This document shows positions 1-12,475 of a DNA stretch of 64,000 nt, piece after piece (the stretch's first letter is position 1; each line of letters opens with the position of its first letter). The stretch covers positions 1-64,000 of the forward strand of contig CANMIX010000005.1 of assembly GCA_947497985.1 (NCBI GenBank). Direction: 5' to 3'. This DNA is from an uncultured Paracoccaceae bacterium (GTDB taxonomy: Bacteria; Pseudomonadota; Alphaproteobacteria; Rhodobacterales; Rhodobacteraceae). Made by a program: the position numbers and the translations under genes. The notes under the pieces are model-generated. The model was given only the letters and a program-made list of their open reading frames with translations. It did no database searches and was not told the DNA's origin.

Positions 1-77
1 CGAAACCATCGTCCAGATGGACCCAAGGCCGGTCATGCACTAACAATCAAATTGGACCACTCAGGTGGGGCTGACCA
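1..77 (+). mobile_element. Right end of an IS3-family element (partial copy)
   Basis: These 77 bases are identical to 11533-11609, the right end of the complete IS copy in this window. They hold the last codons of the transposase (ending in Met-His-stop) and the right inverted repeat, with the terminal CA at 76-77. The rest of this copy lies upstream of the window. The base that follows the terminus differs from the one that follows the second copy, so this is a separate insertion. Confidence 0.9.
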
Positions 78-10141: not shown

Positions 10142-10289
10142 CTTAACCGAGCATTGGAGATCGTTAATGATTAGATGCTAGCACCTAAACAATGTCGACA
10201 ACTTCACAGCTCGAAACATAAGGCTCGACGGCCTGATCCTCCCCCACTGAAGTGGTCCTCCGCTATGTTTAGGAAAATGGAGGAAACAC

Positions 10290-10568
10290 ATGTCCAACAA
10301 GCGACCCAAGCCCGAAGAGATTGTCACGAAGTCACGGCAAGTTGAGGTTCTGACGGGGCAAGGGATGCCACGTCTGGATGCGATCCGGCAGATCGGTGTG
10401 ACTGAACAGACATTCTATCGCTGGAAGAAGAAGTACGGCGGGATGGGTGCGGATCAATTGAAGGAACTCAAACGCCTACAGAAAGAAAATGAGCGGTTGA
10501 GAAAGGCTGTATCGGATTTGACGCTGGACAAACTGATCTTGGCGGAGGCGGCAAAGGGAAACTTCTAA
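10290..10568 (+). CDS. IS3-family transposase OrfA
   Basis: 92 residues with a strong GGAGG site. It has a helix-turn-helix (GMPRLDAIRQIGVTEQTFYR, then WKKKYGG) followed by a leucine-zipper-like helix (LKELKRLQKENERLRKAVSD). It ends just after the slippery heptamer, as usual for IS3 elements. It is intact. Confidence 0.95.
   Translation: MSNKRPKPEEIVTKSRQVEVLTGQGMPRLDAIRQIGVTEQTFYRWKKKYGGMGADQLKELKRLQKENERLRKAVSDLTLDKLILAEAAKGNF
10556..10562 (+). promoter_or_regulatory. -1 ribosomal frameshift site GGGAAAC
   Basis: G GGA AAC lies in the correct phase (preceding codon aag, then gga aac) at the end of orfA. Slipping by -1 enters the orfB frame directly (reading G-K-L-L-S-P-A-R). This is the expected way to make the OrfAB transposase. 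Confidence 0.7.
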
Positions 10569-10757
10569 GCCCCGCGCGTCGTCGTGCTTGCATTGATCGT
10601 GTTCGTGCTGAGCTGCATGTCTCGGAGCGCCGCGCGTGCCGCGTTCTGAGACAACATCTATCTACGCAACGCAAAATGCCTAAAGGTCGTGCCGATGAAG
10701 AACGATTGGTGGCCGATATGATCGAACTGACCCGGCAGTATGGCCGCTACGGCTATC

Positions 10758-10797
10758 CACTGCCTGGCAGGGCATTGCGCAGCAATGTCCCGAGAGG
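10758..10797 (+). repeat. Palindromic insertion 1 in orfB (40 bp)
   Basis: It sits between GGCTATC and GTCGGATC, splitting the codons for Gly-Tyr-Arg-Arg-Ile. It begins CACTGCCTGGCAG and contains the hairpin GGGCATTGC-GCA-GCAATGTCCC, then CGAGAGG. It is related, in opposite orientation, to insertion 3. Confidence 0.8.
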
Positions 10798-10874
10798 GTC
10801 GGATCGCTGCACTGCTGAGAGATGCTGGCTGGCATGTGAATGACAAGCGCATCGAACGCCTGTGGCGACGGGAG

Positions 10875-10920
10875 CGCGGAGGATCAGAAAACAGTCTGGG
10901 AGACTGTTTGCCCGACAAGC
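10875..10920 (+). repeat. Palindromic insertion 2 in orfB (46 bp, net 43)
   Basis: It lies between codons for Trp-Arg-Arg-Glu and Leu-Lys-Val-Pro, where the family has one Gly codon. It contains a perfect hairpin AAACAGTCT-GGG-AGACTGTTT. It differs in sequence from insertions 1 and 3. Confidence 0.75.
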
Positions 10921-10965
10921 CTAAAAGTACCAATGAAACAACCAAAGAAGGGGCGGCTTTGGTTG

Positions 10966-11009
10966 CATCCCTCTCGTGACATTCCTTCGGAATACACTGC
11001 CGGGCAGTG
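10966..11009 (-). repeat. Palindromic insertion 3 in orfB (44 bp, net 41), same family as insertion 1
   Basis: It lies between Arg-Leu-Trp-Leu and Asp-Gly-Ser-Cys, replacing one Asn codon. Its reverse complement begins CACTGCCCGGCAG and ends AATGTCACGAGAGGGATG, close to insertion 1 along its whole length, with the loop arms changed in a compensating way (ATTCC...GGAAT against ATTGC...GCAAT). Confidence 0.8.
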
Positions 11010-11251
11010 GATGGGTCGTGCGTTCGATTGCGGCCTGAACACCGCGATCATGTGTGGTCCTACGACTTCGTGCATTGTCGGACTGACGACGGAAAGGCGT
11101 TCCGTACGCTCAACATCGTCGATGAATACAGCCGGGAATTTTTGGCCAATACGGTGGATCGCAAGCTGAACTCCGGCAACGTCATCGACGTTTTGAGCGA
11201 TCTGTTCATCCTGCGCGGCGTGCCGTCGTTCATACGATCCGATAACGGCCC

Positions 11252-11290
11252 GCTCGCCATTGTGCTTGAACCAATGGCGCACAAACTCGC
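11252..11290 (+). repeat. Palindromic insertion 4 in orfB (39 bp, net 35)
   Basis: It directly follows the SDNGP motif and replaces the last base of Pro and the Glu codon before Phe-Val-Ala. It contains a perfect hairpin CGCCATTG-tgcttgaac-CAATGGCG. It is not obviously related to insertions 1 and 3. Confidence 0.75.
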
Positions 11291-11609
11291 TTCGTCGCTG
11301 GGGCAGTCCAAGACTGGATCAAAGCGGTTGGAGCCAAGACGGCTTACATCGAACCTGGCTCGCCGTGGGAGAACGGATACTGCGAAAGCTTCAACGCTCG
11401 GTTCAGGGACGAGTTCTTGAACGGCGAAATCTTCTATAGCCTGCGTGAAGCCCAAATACTCATCGAACAATGGAGAAAACACTACAACACGAAACGCCCC
11501 CATAGTGCTCTGGGTTATCGCCCACCGGCCCCCGAAACCATCGTCCAGATGGACCCAAGGCCGGTCATGCACTAACAATCAAATTGGACCACTCAGGTGG
11601 GGCTGACCA

Positions 11610-11972
11610 GGTTTTGTGGTGAACCACAAGAAAGTCAGGCGCATCTATACCGAAGAGAAGCTGCAGGTGCGGCGCAGAGGTGGTCGCAAGCGTGCGTTGG
11701 GCACTAGAAAGCCAATGGAGCTGCCGGATGGACCGAACCAACGCTGGAGCTTGGATCTCGTGTCAGACGCGCTGACAGACGGACGTCATTTCCGCATCTC
11801 GGCTGTTGTGGATGATTACAGTCGAGAGAACCTAGTGTTGGTCGCGGACACGTCCCTGTCAGGGCATCGTGTCGTGCGTGAGCTGGATAAGATCATCGCC
11901 GAACGCGGTATGCCGAAGACGATTGTGTCGGACAACGGCACCGAGTTCACCAGCATGGCGATCCTCAAATGG
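11610..11972 (+). pseudogene. Relict of a second IS3-type transposase OrfB, truncated at both ends
   Basis: It translates from VNHKKVRRIYTEEKLQVRRR through RWSLDLVSDALTDGRHFRI (first Asp) to TIVSDNGTEFTSMAILKW (second Asp), then loses similarity at about 11972. It starts exactly at the right end of the IS at 10234-11609 and lacks the catalytic Glu and both termini. The missing left part is not found on the far side of that IS, so a deletion accompanied or followed the insertion. Confidence 0.85.
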
Positions 11973-11974
11973 GT

Positions 11975-12475
11975 TCACCTCAGCACAGGTCCAGAAATTC
12001 TTGCGTTCTTGCGCGAGGCTCTTGCAACGCGACGCAGGGCATCGTGTGCAACAAGGATGTGAAACGGCATGATGCAGGCTAAATAGATGCGCCCGCCCAG
12101 ATTGTGCCGATGTACCCATGTCGCAAGGGATACACGGCCGTCGCCCGAGATAACCGACACACGGAAGTCGAGGTGCGCATCGTTAAACCCGGCGATCAGC
12201 TCTTCTGAGGTTTCGCTTTGCACTGGAAAAGGGCCAACCTTATCCTTTGCGTCGGGGCCGTCAGTTAACAGCCCCAAAGGTGTAACAACCACACTACGCA
12301 GCATGAGAAGCAACCGTGCCCACCATGGAAAGTCAGTGATAATTTCAGCTGCTTGGCGCGGTGTCATTACTGCATCGGTGACATAACAATCCAAAAAATC
12401 GCCGGTCTTAAAATGCAACCAAAGGAGACTGTTTTCGGGCAAATCGCAGTGCTTTACAGGAACTGGTTGAAACAT
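11975..12475 (-). CDS. DUF2867 domain protein
   Basis: About 166 residues when started at ATG 12475; the longer frame to 12718 overlaps the upstream gene and lacks family character. The body (SLLWLHFKTGDFLDCYVTDA, ITDFPWWARLLLMLRSVVVT, and a C-terminal IYLACIMPFHILVAHDALRR) is DUF2867-like, a family of unknown function. The stop lies within a few bases of the IS relict, so the last residues may be altered. Fifteen bases separate it from the upstream membrane-protein gene, giving a two-gene operon divergent from a LysR gene. Confidence 0.7.
   Translation of the reverse strand: MFQPVPVKHCDLPENSLLWLHFKTGDFLDCYVTDAVMTPRQAAEIITDFPWWARLLLMLRSVVVTPLGLLTDGPDAKDKVGPFPVQSETSEELIAGFNDAHLDFRVSVISGDGRVSLATWVHRHNLGGRIYLACIMPFHILVAHDALRRVARASRKNARISGPVLR

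Follow-up and report, generated by a model that had tools for sequence, protein, structure and literature searches.

Introduction

To our knowledge, small palindromic repeats are common, and how they move is mostly unknown. REP repeats are moved by Y1/RAYT transposases, and the byps of Magnusiomyces mitochondria are bypassed elements. REPs are described as mostly intergenic and often high-copy, with dimers in opposite orientation being common. The CGTC class of REP is common in alphaproteobacteria and has no known transposase, its members have a CGTC tag, a stem of 8-9 bp, AT in the first positions and a CCA-like tail, and the few CGTC elements occurring with transposase genes are regarded as fortuitous associations (PMC3733652).

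How does the present locus compare with these systems? Within the window, i.e., the whole stretch of 64,000 bp that was analysed, the transposase gene of an IS3-family element is interrupted by four short hairpins, which belong to three families named here A, B and D. The first-pass annotation of this stretch described the four hairpins, and it missed the property with which we are mainly concerned, a strong preference for the transposase genes of many IS families.

Results

An IS3-family copy with four hairpin inserts

The IS3-family element lies at 10234-11609 on the plus strand of the window, as found by tblastn, by MAFFT and by BLASTN, in which copies on plasmids match as much as 98-99% of the query. 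Its OrfA, located by tblastn with OrfA/OrfB of an insert-free copy, is at 10290-10568 (plus strand), and its OrfB, from about 10619 on the same strand, is split by four inserts. Insert 1 is a family A hairpin of 40 bp at 10758-10797 (plus strand), between ..GGCTATC and GTCGG.., with no target base lost; its net is +40 against 12 of 12 homologues, and the covariance model of family A (R1) matches 10755-10799 with E=9e-14. Insert 2, a family B hairpin placed by alignment and covariance model at about 10875-10918 (plus strand), has a net of +43 against 11/11 homologues and a match of the family B model (R2) at 10871-10918, E=4e-16. Insert 3 is again of family A and in reverse orientation (about 10969-11010, minus strand, by alignment and covariance model), with a net of +41 against 10/10 homologues and an R1 match on the minus strand at 10968-11012, E=8e-13. 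Insert 4 is a family D hairpin at 11253-11290 (plus strand), where 38 bp stand for 3 bp; in the alignment it replaces GAG of the DNG-P-E-F motif, its net is +35 against 8 of 9 homologues, and the family D model (R3) matches 11252-11292 with E=2.5e-10.

The window copy was aligned with ten IS copies by MAFFT, and five of the ten (L050, L051, L053, L055, L056) have no A, B or D block. Against these five, the four extra hairpin blocks in OrfB that had been read from the sequence, with nets of 40, 43, 41 and 35 bp, are confirmed, and so is the expectation that IS copies lacking all of them exist. Both flanks of each block are homologous to the insert-free copies and clean. The nets total 159 bp, the window IS being 1376 bp and L050, L051 and L056 each 1217 bp; with the block columns taken out, OrfB is a single frame with zero stops, just as had been predicted along with a normal IS of 1217 bp. 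Inserts 1 and 3 are 84% complementary over 44 bp, in agreement with the earlier view that they are one family in opposite orientation, and inserts 2 and 4, then assigned to other families, fall into B and D.

Other copies have blocks of their own. In the Parasedimentitalea copy L052, two A and two D blocks were found; D at the window's site is also present in T. mobilis (L049), TM1040 (L054) and the genus genome G004 (L021), and L052 has D at this site in the orientation opposite to that of the window. Three copies (L022:1826-1886, L049:1825-1894, L054:1868-1945) have in common a longer insert, with a net of 54-63 bp, where OrfA ends, at the OrfA/OrfB junction; its stem resembles that of B, and one end, similar to GGGCGGAGCCCC, is shared.

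Directly downstream, window 11610-11975 shows similarity by tblastn to codons 57-181 of IS3 OrfB, which indicates that the insert-laden IS adjoins or sits in another IS3 relic. In addition, 18 contig ends of the window's own genome (e.g., window 1-77) carry 67-111 bp of the ends of this IS at 89-100% identity; a high-copy relative of the window IS3 breaks the assembly of this genome, which shows no more of it than these 67-111 bp.

Structure and copy number of the three families

Covariance models were built from 24 (A), 8 (B) and 12 (D) sequences, and 150 candidates were scored per model and genome, so that all match counts are lower bounds. In 18 genomes of the genus, E <=0.01 gave at least 83 matches for A, 46 for B and 47 for D, and the genomes with matches numbered at least 13 for A, 14 for B and 15 for D. 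In the own genome (G000, 4.19 Mb, the window being on its contig 5) the same threshold gave at least six A, three B and one D. The earlier expectation that the blocks recur elsewhere at high copy is thus half right: they do recur, but at least 10 sites in 4.19 Mb is not a high copy number.

The hairpins are roughly 38-46 bp long. Compensating changes in the stem had been noted between two blocks, and they extend to the families as a whole, where paired positions covary. Family A shows double changes at 8 of 11 pairs, with 27 double-changed cells compared with 5.8 in shuffles; for B and D the double-changed cells are above all 500 shuffles, the structure of D being drawn by hand, and it should be noted that kinship of the sequences can beat shuffles without structure. 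The recurrence of the sequences elsewhere and the covarying pairs together imply that the blocks are more than chance. The stems are free to differ: 47 distinct stems occur among the 69 A copies matching the core pattern, and they lie between the conserved ends TGCCCGGCAG and CGAGAGG. The elements also cluster, 45 of 137 unique genus elements having a second A, B or D element within 600 bp. Among 27 pairs of A no more than 600 bp apart, 12 are convergent and 2 divergent, a bias that is only suggestive because ten family loci were chosen for close pairs.

At the gathering threshold, Rfam returned tRNA only for the six sources searched (the window, L052, L058, L070, L043 and L074), which fits the earlier remark that no described family with these sequences was known. 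A gap scan gave 131 inserts of 28-85 bp, 53 of them outside A, B and D; inspected by eye, many of the 53 are A or B with other stems and others are plain IS length variation. Inspection by eye also brought up a further palindromic insert family with the stem CGTGGCCCC/GGGGCC, at L199:2096-2145, L152:1616-1661 and L087:1636-1681, in transposases that are IS5-like or IS1182-like by eye. Another insert, of 72 bp at L086:1563-1641 (contig C145 of genome G009), consists of two hairpins in tandem, one of them A-like with a long stem.

Net sizes and target sites

For 73 of the 138 elements in the genus DNA retrieved, a homologue without the element was found, and the closest pair with and without the element, among the matches listed, differs by about 5% in the flanks. 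The families are dispersed and conserve structure, and element-free homologues exist, so the earlier proposal, a palindromic repeat that is mobile and invades coding sequence, is supported. Net sizes were taken from inserts that are not duplicates and whose two flanks each reach at least 75% identity (n=42). They are 29-46 for A (n=22, mode 41; the two values of 29 are poorly aligned IS5 junctions), 42-43 for B (n=5) and 35-40 for D (n=15). Twelve of the 42 are divisible by three (A 3/22, B 3/5, D 6/15). In a separate check of the reading frame, some in-frame calls, e.g., in the window, are artefacts of one HSP bridging two inserts. Selection for the reading frame was rejected for family A; for family B it may apply.

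In the junctions that were read, where the element ends are uncertain by 1-3 bases, no duplication of the target can be seen. Few target bases are lost at insertion, and both orientations occur. Each family has its own preferred context. Before family A comes a YCAT-like context and, in 72% of the copies matching the core pattern, the base after it is G. Family B is found at TGGA, mostly then AC, in transposases of the IS5, IS481 and IS1182 types. Family D is often at a GACAACG-like sequence, which in IS3 and IS481 corresponds to codons of the DNG motif, which has a catalytic role; the D target sites recur across IS lineages.

Location in transposase genes

In which genes do the elements reside? 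With the elements masked, transposase homology was found within 250 bp of 99 of the 126 unique genus elements, on both sides for 65, on one side for 34 and on neither for 27. In the set enlarged by family loci the figure is 161 of 209 (A 89/117, B 35/43, D 37/49). The panel used for these counts was made up of 28 ORFs taken from element loci, together with OrfA/OrfB of L050 and one IS481 protein, and was drawn from element-bearing loci with the ORFs chosen by eye. Of the 50 ORFs that were tried, 30 match a Pfam family of transposase type at E 0.01, 25 of these above the cut-off; another three match other families in Pfam (FlgI, DAGK and acyltransferase). As a control, 20 stretches of 10 kb were taken from six of the same genomes, hand-chosen round mid-contig coordinates where collapsed IS are rarer; 0 of their 200,020 bp lie within 250 bp of a panel match, and they contain zero elements. 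For the window, the corresponding value is 2,185 of 64,000 bp.

Among the 27 elements without a panel match, L063 is in an IS3 and L171 in an IS91 according to NCBIfam, and other transposases missed by the panel were recognized by eye only. The best 12 A loci from 248 genomes of the family (L254-L265) were not chosen by hand; nine have a masked panel match within 250 bp (in L265 at a distance of 211 bp), and Pfam reports HTH_Tnp_1 for L254, Transposase_20 for L260 and DDE_3 for L263. As to the host types, IS3, IS481, IS110 and IS91 are named by NCBIfam, below its full-length cut-offs, and the naming of IS256 and IS5 comes in part from Pfam descriptions. We also take IS21, IS630 and IS1182 to be among the host types.

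Several exceptions were observed. One A lies within a RelE toxin gene (L278:1523-1564), another, from D. shibae, is at L303 without transposase homology, and weak D matches are near genes that appear by eye to be housekeeping. The A at L022:3190-3234 was considered as a further exception and ruled out, as rve-type homology is 7 bp away. The plasmid annotation under A is mostly 'none' among the 60 matches listed, with transposase for 3, hypothetical protein for 2 and an unannotated record for 2, in a table that lists no pseudogenes. A literature search of titles and abstracts, with most subscription papers outside it, gave none on palindromes restricted to transposase genes.

Family B apart

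The orientation relative to the transposase, as sense to antisense, is 33:2 for B (n=35), 53:36 for A and 14:23 for D; note that the 35 B copies are not independent, because several share one IS site. By eye, B reads as one peptide, EDQKTVxGTVFPTN, which is in frame with the right-hand transposase flank in hosts of the IS5, IS481, IS1182 and IS3 types (by eye). At L073:1309-2721 (contig C23 of genome G016) a stop-free transposase frame of 471 codons includes B, and a B match of equal score is on contig C6 of the same genome. Family B thus behaves differently, and one mechanism may not cover all three families.

Host range and candidate movers

Across the bacterial family, with one genome per genus, A was found in 109 of 248 genomes at E 0.001. 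A class-wide draw at the different threshold of E 0.0001 gave A in 4 of 190 genomes, two from the family and two from other families. Among 72,556 plasmids, 95 have A, and the 60 matches listed are all from Rhodobacterales genera; phage records gave no A match at E 0.01. Relatives of the IS3 and IS481 hosts range wider, e.g., to plasmids of Rhizobium, Sphingomonas and Methylobacterium. Since A is confined largely to the family while the IS relatives range wider, we infer that its movement or maintenance needs a family-specific factor. Could this be a RAYT? Y1_Tnp (PF01797) is present in two of the 18 genus genomes, G009 and G010, and was not found in G000, G005, G016 and G017; with so few carriers, a resident RAYT was ruled out as the mover in most genomes.

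Fate of insert-bearing IS copies

Substitutions in OrfB were counted if unique to one copy (N:S). The window copy has 12 N and 12 S and no stop, some of the N changes being at insert junctions. The ratio is 6:20 in L051, 4:15 in L022 and 4:3 in L050, and in three copies it is accompanied by stops: 9:8 with 3 stops in L049, 15:4 with 3 in L021 and 21:3 with 4 in L054. Judging from these counts, the window copy probably lost function late and took its four insertions in a short time.

Insert-bearing copies are found in numbers elsewhere. In genome G017, nine of 12 IS481 matches cover the site, and all nine carry A at codon 10 with a net of +44; the five of these copies that were aligned have a common 1-nt deletion. 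An A at the same IS481 codon as in G017, with different stems, was observed in Leisingera (L228:1090-1137). In the finished genome of Dinoroseobacter shibae, three IS5 copies of 919 bp (L290, L291 and L292) lie on plasmid pDSHI04. They are 100% identical and have two A inserts each, the first of which breaks OrfA; a nonsense codon interrupts OrfB. L290 and L292 are identical over the 919 bp alone, and L291 and L292 also share a separate block of 1,476 bp. The same genome has three IS5 relatives of 824 bp at 73-75% identity, two of which were aligned and are without inserts, and a fourth relative, L299, which carries its own inserts, one of them sharing the site but differing in stem; no other close copy of the 919-bp IS5 was found in it. 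Nine of the 10 places of A in D. shibae are listed: six in the 919-bp copies, one in L299, one in L304 (IS3 OrfA by eye) and one in L303, the exception mentioned above. The identical but broken 919-bp copies indicate that a dead IS laden with inserts has moved since the insertion and that such IS still do so, the simplest route being in trans.

Discussion

The reading that we prefer, at a probability of about 0.6 and on the sequence comparisons given above, is that A, B and D are at least three mobile hairpin families of about 38-46 bp in Rhodobacteraceae/Roseobacteraceae that may live as hyperparasites of IS, mostly entering transposase genes. The hairpins insert at preferred short targets with few target bases lost and no evident target duplication, and they shift the frame in many transposases. 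Where the short targets fall in conserved transposase codons, these might act as a safe harbour, and IS transposition in trans could amplify and spread the passenger hairpins. The mover would be a host-restricted factor other than a resident RAYT. The preference for transposases may stem from target choice, safe-harbour selection, IS amplification or silencing.

Then what else might place hairpins in transposase genes? Insertion could be neutral and occur anywhere, with survival only in dead or dispensable DNA, mainly dead IS. This would suit the extra OrfB stops in the insert-bearing L021, L049 and L054 and the elements outside transposases, but it predicts many intergenic copies, and the 200-kb control held none while 99 of 126 elements are at transposases. 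Moreover, the window copy is little decayed yet has four inserts, the D sites recur across IS lineages, and the data lean against the idea that, per neutral base, intergenic DNA and non-IS pseudogenes have more copies than transposases do. We hold this explanation to be unlikely. A different view is that B, and perhaps all families, are in-frame coding inserts tolerated by a working transposase, like the Rickettsia palindromic elements. The sense orientation of 33 of 35 B copies, the peptide that is in frame by eye and the 471-codon frame of G016 speak for it; the shared IS sites of the B copies, the 12 of 42 nets that are multiples of three and the +43 of the window's own B make it rather improbable. 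A working transposase is also assumed if the blocks are passed over by the ribosome or in RNA processing. An OrfB intact apart from its blocks in the window and an insert kept in all nine G017 IS481 matches covering the site would agree with such a bypass, which we nevertheless consider highly improbable in view of the stops and frame shifts in other insert-bearing copies, such as the 1-nt deletion of the G017 IS481 and the nonsense codon of the D. shibae IS5.

The inserts might instead be made by the host, through a defence or silencing system that recognises transposase genes and inactivates them by hairpin insertion. Preference for transposases of unrelated IS families, insertion at the DNG codons and several inserts per IS copy are what such a system would leave behind. 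However, neither an enzyme nor a guide has emerged as a candidate, IS lineages that bear inserts go on multiplying, and short sequence targets could explain the choice of site without any recognition of function, so that the chance of silencing seems very small. Movement of REP elements by a RAYT (Y1 tyrosine transposase) is hardly credible here, even though the size, the hairpin, a bulged base, the lack of an evident target duplication and the excess of convergent over divergent A pairs (12 and 2 of 27) all recall it: Y1_Tnp is in two of 18 genus genomes and not in G000, G005, G016 or G017, the copies are few and mostly intragenic, the consensus sequences are without GTAG, and the features of CGTC-REP are lacking.

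Returning to the hyperparasite reading, one may tentatively go a step further and suppose a roseobacter guild of unrelated, structure-defined mini-hairpins on conserved transposase codons in many IS families, either hyperparasites or a product of IS silencing, served by an undescribed enzyme restricted to the family; this is possible and a good deal less secure. The families are of interest since they are compact, with before and after sites, preferred targets and a striking preference for host genes, and live in marine bacteria for which finished genomes exist. From them one could learn how a hairpin of 40 bp gets about when there is no RAYT, and whether parasites of its own transposases can keep mobile DNA in check.

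How do A, B and D stand beside described elements? Like the REPs with GTAG or CGTC tag (PMC3733652), they are short hairpins with heterogeneous stems. They depart from the extragenic and high-copy rule, with 99 of 126 at transposase genes and at least 10 sites in G000; CGTC is found in the A, B and D consensus sequences only for family B, on the reverse strand and with an 11-pair stem starting GAAAAC, which differs from the CGTC-REP rules. With the Rickettsia palindromic elements (described in part in PMC3733652), they share being short palindromes in alphaproteobacterial coding DNA, and family B in particular keeps the frame in many cases and yields a constant peptide; by description, the difference is that the hosts here are mostly transposases instead of varied cellular genes and that A and D mostly shift the frame. 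MITEs and small mobile repeats are likewise non-autonomous, dispersed and structured, whereas the present elements have only about 40 bp; terminal inverted repeats from a parent transposon were not seen in them, and with ends uncertain by 1-3 bases no target duplication is evident. The mitochondrial double-hairpin elements and byps are also tiny mobile hairpins inside genes, while A, B and D are bacterial and mostly in transposase genes. Mobile palindromes as such are already known; A, B and D are new in the class of genes that they target, in stems that are free to differ and in having no resident RAYT.
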